The notes beneath the pieces are model-generated. The model made no database searches. It had not been told where the DNA came from and saw nothing but the letters and a program-made list of their open reading frames with translations. DNA of 64,000 nt, taken from the NCBI RefSeq assembly GCF_004917065.1, contig NZ_SSYA01000001.1:1134550-1198549 (forward strand), written 5' to 3'. A program made the position numbers and the translations under genes. Source of the stretch: Geomonas ferrireducens. Lineage in GTDB: Bacteria; Desulfobacterota; Desulfuromonadia; Geobacterales; Geobacteraceae. Shown piece by piece: positions 16,960 through 26,476 of this stretch; the first letter of the stretch is position 1; each line of letters starts with the position of its first letter.

Positions 16960-18276
16960 CTAGCTGCGGCCGCCTTCCGCGGCCCACTTCTCAAGCATCG
17001 AGGTGGTCACCGACTTCGGCCGCTCTATGGCGTATCCAAGCCCGCGATCCCAGGTGAGGTTGGCCATGCACCCGAGCGCGCGCCCTACTCCGAAGAGCAC
17101 GGTATAGAAGTCCCACTCCTTCACCCCGTAATGCCACTGGATGACGCCGGACTGTGCGTCCACGTTGGGCCAGGGGTTCTTGGTCTTGCCGTGCTCGGCG
17201 AGCACCCCCGGGGCCACCTCGAAGATCATGGAAACCAGCTTGAAAAGCGGGTCCTCCGGGAGGTGTTTCTGGCAGAACTCCCGCTGCGAGGTGTAGCGCG
17301 GGTCGGTTTTCCTGAGCACCGCGTGGCCGTACCCCGGGATGACTTGGCCGGAATTCAGGGTGTCCCAGAGCGCCTTGGTGATGAGCTCGCGGGTCGGCTC
17401 CTCGTTGCTGCAGTATTTCTTTTGGAACTTCAAGGTCCAGTCGAGCACCTCCTGATTGGCGCGGCCGTGGAGCGGACCTGCCAGCCCGTTCAGCCCGGCG
17501 GCATAGGAGAGGTACGGGTCGGAGAGCGCCGAGTGCACGAGATGGGTGGCATGAGCGGAAACGTTGCCGGACTCGTGGTCGGAGTGGAGGATGAAGTACA
17601 TGCGTGCCACATCCATGTACTCGTCACCCTGGCCGATCATGCGGGCGAAGTTCGCTCCCATGTCGAGCGACGGGTCGATCGCGAGCGGTGCGTCGTCACG
17701 GTACTTCAGGTTGTAGATGAAGGCTGCCAGCACCGGAATGCGGGCGACGATGTCGCACGCGTCCTCGTAGACGTACTCCCACGCGCCGAGCTTGTTGAAA
17801 CTCCCCGAGGTGTAGTAGGCGGCGAACTTCGATTCCCGCTGCATGGCACCGATACCGGTGGAAAGCATGGTCATCGGGTGGCTGTCGCGCGGCATGGCCC
17901 TGATGATGTCGAAAACGTACCCCGGCACCTCCTGGCGCTTCTTCCAATCCGCGAGCACCTCGTCCACCTGTGCCTGCGTCGGCACCTCGCCGGTAAGGAG
18001 GAAATACCAGAACGATTCCACGGTCGGGTACTCGGAACCGGGGGCCTTGGGGAGGGCCGCGAAGGTCTCCGGAATGGTCTTGCCGCGGAAACGGATCCCT
18101 TCCTGCGGGTCGAGATATGAAATGTCGGTTACCAGGCAGCGGATGTCCCGCGCCCCGCCGATGCACTGTTCGATGGTCACTTCGTCGATCTTCACCTTGC
18201 CGTACTCTTTCGCCAGCCGGGTGGTCCTCGGCCTGAACTCGTCGAGCTTTCGCCTGACGGCTTCCTTTAGAGCCAT
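16960..18276 (-). CDS. Citrate/2-methylcitrate synthase, eukaryote-like
   Basis: The 438-residue protein condenses an acyl-CoA with oxaloacetate. The active-site segments are present: GLAGPLHGRANQEV (His), VIPGYGHAVLRKTDPRYT (His) and KEWDFYTVLFGVGRALG (Asp). The length and the mitochondrial-like motifs point to the eukaryote-type citrate synthases known from Geobacter, not the shorter bacterial methylcitrate synthase PrpC. Its place between prpD and the CoA-transferase argues for 2-methylcitrate synthesis from propionyl-CoA, perhaps with citrate synthase activity as well. The ATG at 18276 sits 6 bases after AAGGAG; an ATG two codons earlier touches the ribosome site. Confidence 0.9.
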   Translation of the reverse strand: MALKEAVRRKLDEFRPRTTRLAKEYGKVKIDEVTIEQCIGGARDIRCLVTDISYLDPQEGIRFRGKTIPETFAALPKAPGSEYPTVESFWYFLLTGEVPTQAQVDEVLADWKKRQEVPGYVFDIIRAMPRDSHPMTMLSTGIGAMQRESKFAAYYTSGSFNKLGAWEYVYEDACDIVARIPVLAAFIYNLKYRDDAPLAIDPSLDMGANFARMIGQGDEYMDVARMYFILHSDHESGNVSAHATHLVHSALSDPYLSYAAGLNGLAGPLHGRANQEVLDWTLKFQKKYCSNEEPTRELITKALWDTLNSGQVIPGYGHAVLRKTDPRYTSQREFCQKHLPEDPLFKLVSMIFEVAPGVLAEHGKTKNPWPNVDAQSGVIQWHYGVKEWDFYTVLFGVGRALGCMANLTWDRGLGYAIERPKSVTTSMLEKWAAEGGRS

Positions 18277-18342
18277 GTTCATCTCCTTGTGGTTGTTGTT
18301 AAGCTGCGGATGAGTGCAAGCGCTTGCGGTTTCTGCAGCAGG

Positions 18343-19803
18343 TCAAACGGTAAAAAGTGCCATGAAGTCGTTGACGGGGGTCTCCTCGAGGCGCTGCCGG
18401 TCGCGGCTCAGTTCCATGACGCCTGCGGCCCGTTCCCCGGGAAGGGTGGCGAGGTTATCGTCGAGTTTCCTGAGGATGAGCGGCAAGGCCTCGGCGCGCC
18501 GACGCCGGTGACCGAGCGGGTACTCCACCTCCACCTCCTCGCTTTGCCCTCCGTCCCGGTAAAAGATCTGCACCGAACTCGCGATCGAGCGCTTCTGAGG
18601 GTCCAGATAGTCGAGGCTGTAACGCTCCTCCTCGGTAACCGCCATCTTCCGCCTGAGGTCGTCGATGCGAGGATCGGCAGCCCTTTCGTCCAGGTAGTCG
18701 GTCGCCGTGAGTCCGCCGAAGATGAGGCCGACCGCGGTGATGTACTGGAGGCAGTGGTCTCGGTCGGCGGGGTTATGCAGCTCTCCCGTCTTGCTGATGA
18801 TCCGGAGCGCCGCGCGATGGGTGCGGATCTCCACCCGCTCGATCTCGGAGAGCCGCCCCTTCACCTCAGGGTGCAGCCTGATCGCCGCCTCGAGCGCGCT
18901 CTGGGCATGGAACTCCGCGGGGTAGGCCACTTTGAAAAGGACGTTTTCCATCACGTAGCTTTCGTACGGGCGTTGGAAACGGAAAGGTTCTCCTCGGAAA
19001 CATACGTCGTAGAAGCCCCACCCCTTGGCAGAGAGCGCCCCCGGGTACCCGGCTTCACCCCGCATGGTCAAAAGCGCGAGCCACACGCCCCGGCTCGTTG
19101 CGTCCCCCGCCCCCCAGGATTTGCGCGATCCCGTGTTGGGCGCCTGGCGGTAGATCCTTAGGCTCTGGCCGTCCACCCACGCCTGGGAAACCGCGTCGAC
19201 CACCTGTTCGAGCGTTCCCCCCAAGAGATCGGTCACCACCGCGGCGGTCGCCACCTTCACAAGCGCCACGTGGTCGAGCCCGACGGCGTTCAAGCTGTTT
19301 TCCAGCGCGAGGCACCCCTGGATTTCATGCGCCTTGATCATCGCGGTCAAGACGTCGCGCATGGTGAGGGGGGCCATCCCTTCAGCTACCCTTCTCCGGC
19401 TCAGGTGATCGGCGACGGCCAGGATTCCTCCGAGGTTGTCGGACGGATGCCCCCATTCAGCGGCAAGCCAAGTGTCGTTGTAGTCGAGCCACCTGATCAA
19501 GGTGCCGATGTTGAAGGCGCCGCTCACGGGATCGAGTTCGAAGCGGGTTCCCGGCACACGGCATCCGTGCGGCACCACCGTATCCGGCGCCACCGGCCCG
19601 AGGAGCTTCGTGCAGTCGGAGAACCTTGACGCGAGGACGGCGCATCCCATGGCGTCCATCAGGCTAAGGGCCGCAGTCCGGTAGGCTTCCTCGCTGGTGA
19701 TGGTCGCCTCTTTGATGTAGCGGGCGATGGCGATCATTTCCAGGTCGGCCGAAGGCCGTACATTGATCTCAGCGGTGCTGTTGGTTTCCTCAGTTACCGT
19801 CAT
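18343..19803 (-). CDS. prpD: 2-methylcitrate dehydratase
   Basis: The 486-residue protein belongs to the MmgE/PrpD family and dehydrates 2-methylcitrate to 2-methyl-cis-aconitate. The conserved [20 protein letters not shown] segment (residues ~104-123) is typical of Prp[21 protein letters not shown] follows, and the length matches E. coli PrpD (483 aa). It overlaps the end of prpB by 14 bases, a strong sign of translational coupling in the methylcitrate operon. No aconitase-type isomerase gene is in the cluster, so hydration of the product may use an aconitase encoded elsewhere. Confidence 0.93.
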
Positions 19804-20686
19804 CTCCCCTCCCCTTCATGAGCCGGTCCAGCCTCTCCTCGTACTCCCGGTATCCGAGGACCCGGTACAGCTCCTCGCGTGACTGCATCAACCCGAGCAG
19901 ATCGCGCTGGGTACCGGTGCAATGGATGGTCTCGTAGACCAGCGAGGCTACCTTGCTCATGGCCCGGAAGGCACTGAGGGGGTAGAGAACCATGGCGACC
20001 CCGACCGCCGAGAGTTCCTTCGCCGTGAAGAGCGGCGTCCGCCCTCCCTCGGTGATGTTGGCGAGAATGGGCACCGGCACCGCTTCGGCGAACCTCCGGT
20101 ACTGTTCCAGGTCGGTCGCCGCCTCGGCGAAGATCGCGTCCGCGCCTGCCTCCACGTAAAGGGAGGCGCGCTCGATGGCTGAATCGATCCCCTCGCAGGC
20201 GAGGGCGTCGGTGCGCGCCATGATGATGAAGGAAGCATCCGCTTTGGCATCCACCGCCGCCTTGATCCGGTCGACCATCTTTTCCCTTTCGACCACGCTC
20301 TTGTTGGGGCGGTGTCCGCAGCGTTTGGGGAAGACCTGGTCCTCGATATGAATTGCGGCGACGCCCGCCCGGGTCATCTCTCTTACCGCACGAGCTATCG
20401 TGAAGGGCGACCCCCACCCCGTGTCGATGTCCACCAATAGCGGGAGTTCGCAGGCGCCGGTGATCCGGCGGGCGTCTTCCAGGACATCATCGAGGCAGGT
20501 TATTCCCAGATCGGGACAGCCGTAGGAGGCGTTGGCGACGCCCGCCCCAGAGAGGTAGAGGGCCCGGTGCCCCGCCGCCTCGGCGAGCATGGCGCAGTAG
20601 GCGTTGACGGCGCCAACGATCTGCAGCGGCCGCTCCTGCTCTATGGCCGCTCGAAGCTTCGTTCCCGCGGTGACGGATGCCGCCAT
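19790..20686 (-). CDS. prpB: 2-methylisocitrate lyase
   Basis: The 298-residue TIM-barrel enzyme splits 2-methylisocitrate into pyruvate and succinate, the last step of the methylcitrate cycle. The superfamily signature KRCGHRPNK carries the catalytic Cys near residue 120. It is preceded by [12 protein letters not shown] and by [19 protein letters not shown], which provides metal-binding Asp residues. Length is typical for PrpB (296 aa in E. coli) and shorter than isocitrate lyase. It begins 3 bases after the GntR gene stop and overlaps prpD, so all of these should be on one transcript. Confidence 0.94.
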
Positions 20687-20689
20687 CGG

Positions 20690-21385
20690 TTACCCCTTCT
20701 GTTCCAGTGACTGCCGGCGCCTTTCTTCGATGCTTTTGCGCGCCGCGCTGATGTGGCGTCTCATCAGGAGGTCGGCAAGCTCGGCGTCCCGCTCGGCGAG
20801 CGCCTCCACGATCCGGCGGTGTTCCTTGAGGGCCAGGAGGGGACGCGGGCTCGACGTGCTGAACTGGTAGCGATACATCCGCATCAGTTGGTAAAGCCCC
20901 CCTTCGAGGATGCTGATCACCTTGCGGTTGCGGCTCCCGAGGAGAATGCGGTAATGGAAGTCGAACTCCCCCTCCTGCTGGTAGTAGGAAAGCCCCTGGT
21001 CCTCCCGGATGCTCTTTTCGTGGTCGTCCAGCAGCCGCCCGAGGTCGGCGATCTCCTCGTCGGTCATGTTCACCGCCGCCAGCCCGCAGGCCATCCCCCC
21101 AAGCGCCTCGCGGACCTGATAGATGTCGATCAGTTCCTCGTACGACAGGGTCACCACCCGAGCCCCAAGGTTCGGAGACCGGACCACCAGGTACCTTTCC
21201 TCCAGCCTGCTGAGCGCCTCGCGCAGGGTCCCCCGGCTTATCCCGAACGTCTTTGCCAGTTCCGGTTCCGAAATCTTGCTCCCGGCAGGGATCGCCCCCT
21301 TCACGATGGCGGTCTGCAGTTGCTCGAAAATTCGATCCGATAACGAAAGCGACGAAGTTTCCGCCTCGGTTAGTGATTCATTCAT
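20690..21385 (-). CDS. GntR/FadR-family regulator of the methylcitrate operon
   Basis: The 231-residue protein has an N-terminal winged helix-turn-helix (ISEPELAKTFGISRGTLREA then LSRLEERYLVVRSPNLGARV) and a helical FCD ligand-binding domain (~90-215), as in the FadR subfamily. Such regulators usually sense an organic acid or acyl-CoA. As the first gene of the prp operon it probably controls its own transcript. Two copies of a TGTCGACA palindrome precede it. A GTG three codons upstream is also open, but the ATG at 21385 has AAAGGTG about 8 bases before it. Confidence 0.88.
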   Translation of the reverse strand: MNESLTEAETSSLSLSDRIFEQLQTAIVKGAIPAGSKISEPELAKTFGISRGTLREALSRLEERYLVVRSPNLGARVVTLSYEELIDIYQVREALGGMACGLAAVNMTDEEIADLGRLLDDHEKSIREDQGLSYYQQEGEFDFHYRILLGSRNRKVISILEGGLYQLMRMYRYQFSTSSPRPLLALKEHRRIVEALAERDAELADLLMRRHISAARKSIEERRRQSLEQKG

Positions 21386-21401
21386 TGTCGACACCTTTCA
21401 T
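21386..21401. promoter_or_regulatory. Candidate GntR operator overlapping the ribosome site
   Basis: The core TGTCGACA (21386-21393) is an exact palindrome lying between the Shine-Dalgarno sequence and the ATG of the gntR-like gene. The flank CCTT partly matches the full palindrome 63 bp upstream. Binding here would block the operon directly. Confidence 0.5.
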
Positions 21402-21656: not shown

Positions 21657-22987
21657 TCACACCACCACGCGGAACCTCGCGCCACCCTCGGCGTTCTCGA
21701 CGGTGAGTGCTCCTTTCATGTTCCTCTCAATGATCATCTTCGCCATGTAAAGGCCGATCCCCGCCCCTTGCGGCCCTTTGGTGGTGAAGTAAGGATCGAA
21801 TACCTTTCGAGGATCTCCTCCGGCACCCCCCCGGCGTTGTCGGAGACGGTCACCACCGACCGGCCGTTCTCTTCGCCCACGTGGATCCGGATCGTCGGCT
21901 TTGGCGGCTTCGCCGCCACGAAAGCGTCCCGCGCGTTGATGAGAAGGTTCAAGAGCACCTGCGCGTACTCGTTGGGGTACCCCTCGATCTGCGGCTGCGC
22001 CGAGGAGGTGACCTCGATCCTGATCTGCACCTCGTGCAGGCTTATATCCACCAGGGAAACGGTTTTCTCCACCGCCTCCAGCACGGAGAACCTCGATTTT
22101 TCCGCTACGGGGGTGAAAAAGCTCCTGAACTTGTCGATGGTCTGCGACATCTGCATGATCGCATCCATCATCTTCTCCACCTTCGTGTCCAGGTATTCCT
22201 CGGTCAGCTCACCGAGCCGCAGGGTGATGGGAAGGTCCTGTGCCAGAAGGGCGAGCACGTTCAGCGGCTGGCGCCACTGGTGCGCGATGTTGCTGATCAG
22301 CTCCCCCATGGCCGCCAGGCGCCCCTGCTGGATCAGCATCCGGTCCATCTGTCTCAGGCGCTCCGCGACCTGCAACCGCTCGGCACTCTCGAGCTCCAGC
22401 TGTCCGTAAGCGGTACTGAGCTCGGCGTTTCTCTCCTTCATCTGCCGCTCGGCCAGGCGCCGGGTCACGATCTCCGACCTGAGCTGAATTTCTGTCATCA
22501 CGGCAGCGGCCAGATCCTCCACTACGGAGATCTGCTCGCCGGTCCACTCTCTGGGCTTCCCGTCAAGGACGCAGAAAGAGCCTAGGATGTAGCCGTCCGC
22601 ACTGGTTAGGGGGATGCCGAGGTAGGCAATCACGTTCAGGTCGCGAATGGCGAGGTTGTCCTTGAAAAGTGGATGCTCGCGCGCGTCCTTAATGATGAGT
22701 GGGGTCTTGGCGATGCGGTTGTACTGGCAGAAGGAATGGGAAAGAGGGGTCTCGCGCCGTGACTGCCACGGCTCTGGAAGTCCCAGGCAGCTTTTGAAGA
22801 ACTGGCGATCCGAATCGATTAGGGAGACCAGGGCGGCCGGGGCTCCGGTGAAGCGAGCCGCGAGCCTGGTCAGCCTGTCGAACGCCTCCTCGGCGGGTGT
22901 GTCGAGCAGGGCGACGGCACGCAAGGCCGCGAGCCTAGTCGGGTCTGCTACGTGTTCCTGAACGTCCCTAGCTTCTTTACCGTTCAT
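21657..22987 (-). pseudogene. GAF-domain histidine kinase with a 1-base frameshift
   Basis: The frame encodes an N-terminal GAF domain (~25-165), a coiled linker, an H-box of the NIAHQWRQPLN type (residue ~255) and a HATPase domain. After EEILER (near 21800-21810) the frame goes wrong and would stop at 21734. Adding one base, for example restoring GGG for GG, returns the expected text: VFDPYFTTKGPQGAGIGLYM, continuing to a natural TGA at 21657. The total length (1331) is one base short of a multiple of three. This is a recent loss of the ATP-binding C-terminus or a sequencing error. The start at 22987 has GAGGAGAG just before it. Confidence 0.8.
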
Positions 22988-23266
22988 CGCTCTCCTCTTC
23001 CATAAAGGCCGGATGTCTTGGTCGCCCTCTGACACAAGGGGATAAAGTATCAGATTTTCCGGCACTTTCAAGCCGCCTGCGCCGGCATGCCCTGTTTCGA
23101 CGCCGCCTGAAGGTTCGTGAGTTTTTCCTTTTTATTTCAGCGTTTACACGACAACCCCAAATAAAATAAGATATCTGTGGCCTCGCCGAGCGCCAAACAT
23201 CCACCGATGCGGCCGGCAGGAACGGGGTACGTCACCCCGGTTGAAACACATGCTGAAGGAAAAGGT

Positions 23267-23641
23267 ATGGCCAAGATCATTTCGTTCGAGAAGATGCAGC
23301 AGGCGATCAGGAAAAGAAGGGAAGCGGAAGCGCACCTGCAGAACACCGAGGACGACATCACCGCGATCCTCAACGACTACTCCCTCACCCCGGCCAACCG
23401 CCGCTGGAAACTGGAAAACATGCTGATGGATGTGGACGAGCAGTTGGAACAGTACCGCAGGGAGCTCGAAGCCGCGGAAAGGAAGCTGAACGCGCTGGTG
23501 GCGAACGCCGAGGGTGAGATCGCCCGCGCTTACGGCGAGTTTGAGGCAAAGGTGCGCGGCATGACGGTCGCGGTGCAAAAGCTCACCGGCGACAGCACAG
23601 CCCGCACGGCAGTGGGAAGCGCGAAACGCGGCGAGCCCTGA
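23267..23641 (+). CDS. Coiled-coil protein of unknown function
   Basis: The 124-residue protein (MAKIISFEKMQQAIRKRREA...) is nearly all helical and rich in Glu, Arg and Lys in heptad-like order from about residue 8 to 100. It has no membrane segment, signal peptide or cysteine. I do not recognise a family. The ATG at 23267 is preceded by AAGGAAAAGG, and 30 further upstream codons lack protein character. It lies ahead of the selenoprotein gene with about 105 bp between them. Confidence 0.7.
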   Translation: MAKIISFEKMQQAIRKRREAEAHLQNTEDDITAILNDYSLTPANRRWKLENMLMDVDEQLEQYRRELEAAERKLNALVANAEGEIARAYGEFEAKVRGMTVAVQKLTGDSTARTAVGSAKRGEP

Positions 23642-23746
23642 GCGCCTACCCCTTCCTTCTTTTTTCAGGTTATGGTTTTCAGCCCCACCTGTTTGTGCTA
23701 GTTATGTAGGCGTTCAACGCCACAGCAACGCACAGGGAGGTTGACC

Positions 23747-24001
23747 ATGAAGATCCGCAAGAAGATTCTCGATTTCGAGTACGAGGAAGTCCTCGAGGAG
23801 AAGTACCGCGAGCTGATCCGCGTGGCATGCGCCGTAGCGGTCGGCTGCCCGGACTGACTCAAGAAGCATTTCGCGGTCGCGAAAAATGCAGGCGCCACCG
23901 AGGCGGAGCTGAACGAGGCCATGGCCTACGGCATCATCGCCCCTTCCGGAAGGGCGAAGAACTTCGTGCGCAGCCAGGAAGAAGCCCTGAAGGAACTGTA
24001 A
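23747..24001 (+). CDS. AhpD-like/carboxymuconolactone decarboxylase-fold selenoprotein
   Basis: Reading through the in-frame TGA at 23855-23857 as selenocysteine gives an 84-residue protein. Around codon 37 it reads VACAVAVGCPDU-LKKHFAV, and it ends at a TAA. The CxxU pair replaces the CxxC redox pair of AhpD-type proteins, and the following KKH keeps the usual nearby His. Downstream text (AKNAGATEAELNEAMAYGII) fits the family, which argues that the stop codon is read through. GGGAGG precedes the ATG. A SECIS-like hairpin begins 9 bases after the TGA, and a terminator follows the TAA. The role is probably peroxide or thiol redox chemistry. A standard gene caller would miss it or split it. Confidence 0.85.
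23866..23889 (+). promoter_or_regulatory. Bacterial SECIS-like hairpin
   Basis: The hairpin has a GCATTT/AAATGC lower stem, an AA bulge, a CGC/GCG upper stem and a GGTC apical loop. The GGU of the loop begins 17 bases after the TGA, close to the 18 in E. coli fdhF mRNA, whose loop also contains GGU. SelB recognises such loops. Pairing was done by eye. Confidence 0.7.
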
Positions 24002-24016
24002 CCTCCACCCATCCCC

Positions 24017-24045
24017 GCCGGGACCGTACTGGTCCCGGCTTTTTG
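24017..24045 (+). terminator. Rho-independent terminator of the selenoprotein gene
   Basis: A perfect 9-bp stem (GCCGGGACC with GGTCCCGGC), a 5-base loop and TTTTT follow 15 bases after the selenoprotein stop. Confidence 0.88.
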
Positions 24046-24070
24046 CCTTTTGAAGGAAACGCCTGTCGTC

Positions 24071-25414
24071 TTGAAACGTCTCATCTCTTCCAAAAACAGC
24101 AAGCGCATCTCGATCCGTCGTGATGTCGCCGCCCTCTCCATGCCGGTGCTTTTGTCCTCGCTTTTCCAGCGCCTGGTCTCAATCGTGGACATCTTCATGG
24201 TCGGCGGGCTCGGTGCCGCGGCGATCGCCGCCACCGGTCTCGGACAGCTCCTCATTTTCGTCACCATGACCGTCTTCTGGGGGCTCTCCACGGGAACCAA
24301 CGTGGTCATCGCCCACCTCTGGGGCGCGGGCAGGCGCGTCGAGGCGAAGAGAGCCGCCTTCGCGTCGCTTCTCTTCTGCGTCCTTCTCGCCGTTGCCGCG
24401 AGTCTCCTCGGCATCTCCTTCGGCAAGGAGATCGCCGTCTTCATGGGGGCACAGCCCGAGGTGCTCTCCTACGCCTCCGAGTACATCCGCCTCGTCTTTC
24501 TATACTTCGGCTTCACCGCCGGGCTGAACATCCTCTCCGCCATCATGCAGGGGACCGGCAACACACGCACCCCGATGGAGGGGATCCTCCTGGTGAACGT
24601 CCTGCACGTGGCGATCGCCTACCCCCTCATCTACGGCCACTTCGGCTTTCCCCGCTTCGGCGTCGTCGGCGCGGCCTACGCCATCAACCTATCCGAGGCG
24701 GCGGGCTTTTGCTACCTCCTCGTCCAGGCGTTCCGCGGTGGTTACCTGAAGGTCGGGAAACCGGACCTGGTGCTGCTGAAGAAGGTGCTCGGCATCGGCT
24801 ACCCGGTCGCCCTCGAGCGCATCGCCCAGCAGTCCGGCCAGCTCTTCTATTCAAAGTTCATCATTGGCTTCGGAACCGCCGCGTACGCCGCGCACCAGAT
24901 CGGTCTCTCCATCGAGTCGCTCTCCTTCATGCCCGGCGCCGGGATGGGTATCGCGGCGGCGACCCTCATGGGGCAGGCGCTCGGGGCGAGGAAGCTAAGG
25001 CGGGCCCACATGAGCCACACCGAGGCGTTGAGACTCGCCGTCCTGGTCATGGCCTTCATGGCGCTGCTCTTTTTCTTCCTGCCGCACCAGTTGATCGCCC
25101 TCTTCACCACCGACCCCGACGTCATCGAGAAAGGGAGCGTCTTCCTCCGGCTGGTCGCCTTCGCGCAGGTACCGCTAGCACTCTCCTTCGTCTACGCCGG
25201 CAGCCTGCGCGGCACCGGCGACACCCACTTCGTCTTCCTGATCACCCTGGCCTCCATGTGGGGGGTCCGGGTGCTTTTCTCCTACATCGCCGCCGTCCCT
25301 CTCAAACTCTCGCTTTATGCGGTCTGGAGCGTCTTCGTAGTCGACTGGTTCGTCCGCGCTGCTGCCTTCTGGTGGCGCTACCAGCGCCGCGACCTGCACC
25401 AGGTGATCATCTAG
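24071..25414 (+). CDS. MATE-family multidrug/Na+ efflux transporter
   Basis: The 447-residue protein has twelve hydrophobic segments in two similar halves, the layout of MATE exporters. It begins IRRDVAALSMPVLLSSLFQR and VDIFMVGGLGAAAIAATGLG, typical of the NorM/DinF branch, and repeats the pattern in the second half (GIGYPVALERIAQQSGQLFY). It would expel cationic compounds or metabolites in exchange for Na+ or H+. The start is uncertain: no ATG fits. A TTG at 24071, with AAGGAA 12-13 bases upstream, is favoured over a TTG at 24050 that lies against the preceding terminator. The methyltransferase gene begins 3 bases after the stop, so they are co-transcribed. Confidence 0.88.
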   Translation: MKRLISSKNSKRISIRRDVAALSMPVLLSSLFQRLVSIVDIFMVGGLGAAAIAATGLGQLLIFVTMTVFWGLSTGTNVVIAHLWGAGRRVEAKRAAFASLLFCVLLAVAASLLGISFGKEIAVFMGAQPEVLSYASEYIRLVFLYFGFTAGLNILSAIMQGTGNTRTPMEGILLVNVLHVAIAYPLIYGHFGFPRFGVVGAAYAINLSEAAGFCYLLVQAFRGGYLKVGKPDLVLLKKVLGIGYPVALERIAQQSGQLFYSKFIIGFGTAAYAAHQIGLSIESLSFMPGAGMGIAAATLMGQALGARKLRRAHMSHTEALRLAVLVMAFMALLFFFLPHQLIALFTTDPDVIEKGSVFLRLVAFAQVPLALSFVYAGSLRGTGDTHFVFLITLASMWGVRVLFSYIAAVPLKLSLYAVWSVFVVDWFVRAAAFWWRYQRRDLHQVII

Positions 25415-25417
25415 CCG

Positions 25418-26476
25418 ATGCGGCTCTCATTCGTCCCCACGGCAGAGCCACACGCGATCCGGGAGCGCCTGGGGCGGCTTCTTACGCCCGGCTCCCTTCT
25501 CGACGACCGGCTGGAACGGCGCATCTCGCGCCTTGGAGGCCGCTTCGTAAGTTACGCTGCGAGCTATCCCTTACCCCTTTGGGCACCCGGCCTCGAGATC
25601 ACCCCGGAGATGCGCGGCATGACCGAGGCGCTCTTTCCGCTCGCCGAACCGCGCACTCTGTTCGAAAAGGTGCTGCGGCGCGGCTGCCGGTTCGCCCCTT
25701 TGCTCTCCGGCACCTACCTTGAGAGCTCTGCGAGCTGGCTCGACCTGCTGCAGAGGCTTTCGCCGCAGCTTCCATGCGCCGATCCCGCGCCGTCCCTGCG
25801 CCGGCTCGCCTGCGACGACGCCGCACGCACCGCGTTTCTTTTCGCGCTCATGCTTCCGCAGCATTTCGGCGGCGGCTTCGACCGCTATCCGCATCAGCTC
25901 TCGTGGATTTCAGTGTGGATGAAAGAAAAAGGGGCATGCCGAGCAGACAGCATCCGCGTGCTGGACGCCGCCTGCGGCAGCGGTGAAGGGACCTACCAGG
26001 TGGCGCAACTCCTTTTAGAGGCCGGGATGGGGAAAGGAAGCTCCGTGCACGGCTCCACGCTGGAGCCGATCGAGCTCTTCGCCGGCGCCCACATGTACTT
26101 CCCGCACGCCCCGGAACGCGGGCGTGAGTACCGCAACCGGGCGGGGTCGCTCCTCGGGCCGGGTGCCGACGCCCCGGCGCTGGAATTCTACCTGGACCGC
26201 GTCGACGCCCCTCCTTCGCGCGAGCCCTACGACCTGGTCCTTTGCAACGGGCTTCTGGGCGGTCCCCTGCTGCACGAGCCCGAGGAACTCGCTTCCGCCT
26301 TCGCCGGGCTATCCGCGCGGCTGGCCCCCGGCGGGTTGTTGCTCGCCGCCGACCGCTTCCACGCCGGTTGGCGCCAACGCGTTCCCGAGGAGGACCTTAT
26401 CGCCCTGATGCGGATCCACGGCCTCACCCCGGTCGAGGTCCCCGAAGGGATCGCGGGGAAAAAGGGAGATCCCTGA
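25418..26476 (+). CDS. SAM-dependent methyltransferase, CheR-like
   Basis: The 352-residue protein has a class I methyltransferase core in its second half: motif I RVLDAACGSGEGTYQVAQLL (residues ~180-199), then an acidic strand end, and YDLVLCNGLLGGPLLHEPEE (~270). The order CGSGEGTY...LCNGLL resembles CheR-type methyltransferases, but the CheR helical N-terminal domain is not evident. The N-terminal ~170 residues are unassigned. The substrate is unknown. It is coupled to the MATE gene and followed by a bidirectional terminator. Confidence 0.72.
   Translation: MRLSFVPTAEPHAIRERLGRLLTPGSLLDDRLERRISRLGGRFVSYAASYPLPLWAPGLEITPEMRGMTEALFPLAEPRTLFEKVLRRGCRFAPLLSGTYLESSASWLDLLQRLSPQLPCADPAPSLRRLACDDAARTAFLFALMLPQHFGGGFDRYPHQLSWISVWMKEKGACRADSIRVLDAACGSGEGTYQVAQLLLEAGMGKGSSVHGSTLEPIELFAGAHMYFPHAPERGREYRNRAGSLLGPGADAPALEFYLDRVDAPPSREPYDLVLCNGLLGGPLLHEPEELASAFAGLSARLAPGGLLLAADRFHAGWRQRVPEEDLIALMRIHGLTPVEVPEGIAGKKGDP

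Follow-up and report, generated by a model that had tools for sequence, protein, structure and literature searches.

A "distant AhpD homolog" was listed in 2006 among the selenoproteins of Geobacter sulfurreducens and G. uraniumreducens (PMC1794560). It was listed again in 2022 as a CxxU protein, AAR36519.2 (PMC9312934), and a 2026 review lists the profile NF041047, the "GSU3128 family (seleno)protein," as CxxU (PMC13188914). Searching the available literature for GSU3128 returned nothing. In the AhpD protein of M. tuberculosis, a proton relay is formed by Glu118, Cys130, Cys133, and His137, with a fifth relay place that is not absolutely conserved (PMC3141380). For the RNA signal that specifies selenocysteine in bacteria, the bSECIS model has limits of 3 to 9 nt for the loop, 4 to 16 bp for the upper stem, a G in loop places 1-2, a spacing of 16 to 37 nt, and an energy at or below -7.5 kcal/mol, although not every bSECIS element conforms to it (PMC13188914).

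A predicted AhpD-type selenoprotein gene and its family

The window, by which we mean the whole stretch of 64,000 nucleotides that was analyzed, contains a gene that belongs to this family (Table 1). On the plus strand, an ATG that lies 6 bases past a ribosome-binding site opens a frame of 84 residues in which the only TGA is codon 37. The frame ends at codon 85 with a TAA (23999-24001), 48 codons past the TGA, and is followed by a rho-independent terminator. All of these signals had been proposed from the nucleotide letters, and each was recovered at its place. We consider it very probable that the product is a stand-alone oxidoreductase of the AhpD type, with the CMD fold, in which the UGA would be decoded by SelB as Sec37 by way of a hairpin within the gene, and that it would carry out selenol/thiol redox chemistry.

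Table 1. Features of the selenoprotein locus, in window coordinates
Feature	Position	Strand	Basis
Ribosome-binding site GGGAGG	23735..23740	+	Sequence reading
GSU3128-family selenoprotein gene (predicted), 84 residues, Sec at 37, stop TAA	23747..24001	+	Sequence, profile matches, relatives
In-frame TGA, predicted selenocysteine (Sec37 of Cys34-Pro-Asp-Sec37)	23855..23857	+	Sequence; kept in 137/137 over-cut-off matches
SECIS hairpin (predicted), 6 possible stem pairs, loop GGUC at 23875-23878	23869..23884	+	Sequence, folding, silent sites
Rho-independent terminator, 10-pair stem (24017-24039) then TTTTT	24017..24044	+	Terminator search

When read through the TGA, the protein scored 160.6 bits against NF041047, an NCBIfam equivalog with a curated cut-off of 110. 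The match was full length, covering positions 1-82 of the 84 in the profile and residues 1-81 of the protein, and Cys34-Pro-Asp-Sec37 corresponds to the CxxU motif of the family. The protein also scored 52.2 bits against Pfam CMD (cut-off, 23). Together with fold and sequence matches that agree, these scores bear out the assignment to AhpD/CMD proteins with a CxxU motif that the sequence-only reading had made. A profile search recovered one NF041047 match in the whole genome, and the nearest named relatives, from Geomonas edaphica and G. oryzae, were 99% identical. Compared with NF041047 and the "distant AhpD homolog," nothing essential differs in the window protein, which is a Geomonas-like member. 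The finding is correct and well supported, and it is already known at the family level; the earlier description of the gene as hidden was too strong for a family that has long been in print and that is represented in NCBI's annotation library.

A sister branch of the family (L068-L072, 39 to 42% identity) falls below the cut-off and keeps both the TGA and the stem. After NF041047, the nearest families for the three of its five proteins that were scanned are the AhpD parts of the ArsM_AhpD_UU and MduS selenoproteins.

Fold, active site, and genomic surroundings

The AlphaFold model, which was built as a monomer from 27 rows with Cys at position 37, had a pLDDT of 95.9 and predicted three helices and two short strands. 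In a Foldseek search, the best PDB match was 3bey (rmsd of 1.1 over 61 columns). This protein, O27018 of Methanobacterium thermoautotrophicum, was the top PDB match by both sequence and fold, but it has Cys at both redox places and Leu at the place of Glu22. RclX was second (7y4r; TM of 0.75, 34% identity), and AhpD of M. tuberculosis matched weakly and ranked much lower, with an E value of about 0.4 or more. Alignments put a Glu at the Glu22 place in 7y4r and 5dik.

Conservation at the predicted active site was strict. Specifically, Glu22, Cys34, residue 37, and His41 were invariant in all 27 aligned rows, and the Glu-x11-Cys-x2-Sec-x3-His spacing of the window protein equals that of the AhpD relay described in PMC3141380. 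The window protein thus has the CMD fold and the Glu/Cys/Cys-or-Sec/His spacing in common with AhpD of M. tuberculosis and with the AhpD-like protein PA0269. It differs from them in being just 84 residues long, in having Sec in place of the second Cys, and in having Asp36 at the fifth relay place (His132/Tyr50), where the family rows have Asp or Thr. Sec37 would act as the nucleophile, and Cys34 would resolve the intermediate. The selenolate of Sec37, which occupies the place of Cys133 in the M. tuberculosis protein, would attack an oxidized substrate (a peroxide, a disulfide, or another oxidant) and would form a selenenylsulfide with Cys34 that a cellular thiol donor could reset. Glu22 and His41 may act as the proton relay.

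The genomic surroundings were variable. Downstream of the selenoprotein gene is a MATE transporter gene (TIGR00797, 268.7 bits). In 21 of the 36 loci compared, a MATE gene comes next; the remaining 15, some of which are short contigs, have other genes there. Gene clusters F8 and F6 adjoin in 8 and 9 other loci, and no neighboring gene was constant across all 36 loci, several of which are short contigs. We claim no operon partner, because a terminator lies between the selenoprotein gene and the MATE gene, and the substrate is not readable from context, because no partner gene is fixed across loci. Upstream, an ORF at 23177-23641 (+) had no Pfam or NCBIfam match and clusters with ORFs in 8 of the 36 loci, itself included. 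Farther away, on the minus strand at 16960-21394, genes for citrate synthase, PrpD, PrpB, and a GntR-type regulator stand in a row and are probably a 2-methylcitrate-cycle cluster.

An argument can be made that the gene encodes a selenoprotein whose role is not that of a peroxidase-type redox enzyme. Instead, the protein could work in the manner of RclX or some other protein with the CMD fold, or it could be a free version of the AhpD domain that is fused to a methyltransferase in ArsM_AhpD_UU and MduS. The rank of RclX among the PDB matches is consistent with the former; since RclX matches the fold better than AhpD of M. tuberculosis does, structure alone leaves the choice of role undecided. 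The affinities of the sister branch point to the latter, as do weak ArsM_AhpD_UU and MduS matches of the window protein itself and a weak, below-cut-off methyltransferase match in the second gene downstream. Nevertheless, the eight neighbors scanned with NCBIfam included no name related to arsenic, methyl-metal, or chlorine defense, and the neighboring genes vary between lineages. We regard such a role as unlikely, though deserving of some weight, and we favor an AhpD-type redox enzyme.

A hairpin with constrained silent sites

The hairpin (TTTCGC-GGTC-GCGAAA) starts 11 bases past the TGA and its loop 17 bases past it. In the best fold, which extends over 23866-23889, a 4-bp upper stem is joined through an AA bulge on the 3' side to a 5-bp lower stem, with an energy of -9.3 kcal/mol. 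With a loop of 4 nt that begins with GG, this fold lies within all of the bSECIS limits. The bare 6-bp hairpin, at -5.4 kcal/mol, is weaker than the energy limit. The likeness to fdhF of E. coli that had been suggested for this hairpin is a close one: in the MG1655 record of strain K-12, a GGTC loop stands 18 bases past the TGA. The fdhF fold differs in having a one-base U bulge in its 5' arm, which the window hairpin is without, and in the sequence of its stem. Similarly, the SelD gene of the same genome has a hairpin with a GGC loop, again starting with GG and 17 bases past the TGA, on a stem of different sequence. An Rfam scan of 22000-26000 returned no SECIS and one chance match far below the gathering score.

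Across the family, 57 of 62 distinct sequences fell within the four bSECIS limits that were compared, those on energy, spacing, the size of the loop, and its G, stem length not being among them. The best folds of the other five (L009, L010, L054, L107, and L115) were outside; L009 and L010 are the closest relatives of the window gene.

In a single genome, such a hairpin is only modest evidence against chance. Perfect stems of at least 6 bp occurred at that distance from 43 of the 2697 codon positions in seven ORFs of the window. When the hairpin stretch was recoded with local codon usage while keeping its amino acids, 20,912 of 100,000 synonymous versions (21%) had a similarly placed perfect stem of at least 6 bp, and exactly the hairpin core of the window arose in 3,176 of them. 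The hairpin stands well above chance because of comparative evidence, namely, conservation of the TGA and the freezing of silent sites.

For the silent-site comparison, we assembled 84 loci, of which 67 were distinct: the window, L009-L043, L053-L072, and L088-L115, the last being 28 loci added from the 137 over-cut-off matches of the class sample. The window's own copy (L052) and plain CMD proteins without the stop (L073-L081) were left out. Setting aside the sister rows L068-L072 left 62 distinct sequences, window included, whose own codons other than 41-46 supplied the expected codon use. Because the rows were picked by the motif Cys-x-x-TGA-x3-His, they cannot count losses of the TGA, and our TGA counts come from the named relatives, the phylum sample, and the class sample.

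Comparison of these sequences revealed a sharp constraint on the hairpin. Silent-site entropies relative to expectation were 0.28, 0, 0.28, 0, 0.07, and 0.29 for codons 41-46 (mean, 0.15), which is the lowest silent variation among 71 six-codon windows. The 62 codons outside the hairpin had a mean of 0.88 of expectation, with 0.37 as the lowest single codon. Furthermore, the freeze persists while residue 44 varies among Val, Gly, Ala, and Leu and the loop among GGTC, GGGC, GGCC, and AGGT. The same stem is shared by the sister proteins.

Covariation was dropped as main evidence. The alignment comprised 25 chosen rows without four sequences that have exceptional loops (L054, L061, L107, and L115), and the signal was one pair in one clade, that of the window, where CAC..AAG is replaced by CAT..AAA, a compensated change from C-G to U-A found in 3 of the 62 sequences. 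This was reached by 13 of 500 shuffles, and controls slid by +2, +3, and -3 scored higher, so that the controls do not favor it. It is the silent-site result, not covariation, that carries the argument for the predicted SECIS.

The freeze might in principle reflect another RNA function, such as an antisense RNA or a processing site, with no SECIS involved. On the opposite strand the hairpin is terminator-like, being one of two such sites where shuffling leads one to expect 0.9, and relatives in genus g4 keep the TGA even though their loop has changed. On the other hand, both the place and the loop of the hairpin fit the bSECIS model, fdhF of E. coli, and SelD of the same genome, and the lowest silent variation is restricted to the hairpin codons. 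We therefore find another RNA function very improbable and retain the reading of the hairpin as a SECIS.

Predicted decoding of the UGA and loop exceptions in genus g4

Conservation of the TGA was complete among the family members sampled. In the 35 named relatives, the TGA was at the matching codon in every case (one codon later in L042, because of an inserted codon), and the frame continued through it in all. The named-genome search finds close relatives only. In the class sample, which represents genomes of one class, 136 of 277 genomes had a match over the cut-off, and an in-frame TGA was present in 137 of 137 such matches, as counted from the printed rows. A second family copy in another genome (G520:C112:13813-14040) has an additional in-frame TAG and is perhaps a decaying duplicate. 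In the phylum sample, over-cut-off matches occurred in 16 of 395 genomes, all with one TGA, and the next-best five matches, which were below the cut-off, each had one TGA at the matching codon. Cys homologs at position 37, which had been proposed as something to look for, exist among broader CMD/AhpD proteins, and none occurred among the over-cut-off members in either the class sample (137 matches) or the phylum sample. Homologs ending at the TGA, frameshifts in related strains, and missing selenocysteine machinery had been named beforehand as grounds for rejecting a selenoprotein. None of the 35 named relatives and none of the 137 class matches ended at the TGA, and no frameshift was seen in the named relatives.

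The machinery for selenocysteine is encoded in the genome. All four components were present, with scores of 74.9 bits for tRNA-Sec (cut-off, 47), 395.9 bits for SelB (cut-off, 242.25), 609.9 bits for SelA (cut-off, 267.9), and 359.2 bits for SelD (cut-off, 125). The SelD gene (L083 1501-2418) has one in-frame TGA of its own and by that sign is itself a selenoprotein gene. SelA was found in all 16 phylum-sample genomes that have the family, but because SelA is over the cut-off in 355 of the 395 genomes overall, its co-occurrence is uninformative. With this machinery, the UGA at codon 37 would be decoded as selenocysteine by SelB and Sec-tRNA, as directed by the coding-region hairpin.

Two other fates of the UGA are scarcely credible. 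If it were a true stop, the product would be a 36-residue peptide, with the remainder decayed or an untranslated remnant; a plain list of ORFs of at least 80 residues indeed has no ORF in the frame of the gene at 23747-24001, where it gives an overlapping out-of-frame ORF of 98 residues (+) and another of 172 residues (-), but past the TGA the residues are kept while their codons vary silently, the TGA is unchanged in every over-cut-off match, and the four sel components are in place. Reading by an ordinary tRNA (e.g., Trp or a suppressor) would likewise give an open frame, and we found nothing else in its favor; the Sec tRNA, SelA, and SelB of the genome, the position of residue 37 at the place of the catalytic Cys of AhpD proteins, and the frozen hairpin at bSECIS spacing all argue for selenocysteine.

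The exceptions to the loop rule came from a single genus. L054, L061, L107, and L115 (4 of the 62 sequences) have CCTG or CTTG at the loop place, with no G in the first two positions, and all are from genomes of genus g4, whose loops are known from these four sequences rather than from all g4 genomes of the class sample. Each has kept the TGA. L061 can form no more than 3 of the 6 pairs at the usual stem place, and an alternative hairpin (GCAGCC...GGCTGC) can be seen by eye. As a tentative reading, which we hold with low confidence, the family may be obligately Sec-containing and the SECIS may have dictated protein sequence across the class, with g4 having swapped the leading loop G while keeping the UGA; SelB of g4 may then recognize another loop sequence or a hairpin that has moved.

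The biology of this protein looks ordinary for Sec-using bacteria of the class. Our findings highlight a gene that a plain ORF listing truncates at its active-site codon and that comparison indicates is a real selenoprotein gene. They also give a clear view, by comparison across relatives, of a predicted bacterial SECIS whose silent sites have barely changed. Finally, the loop-changed genus g4 represents a natural experiment on which loop bases SelB needs.
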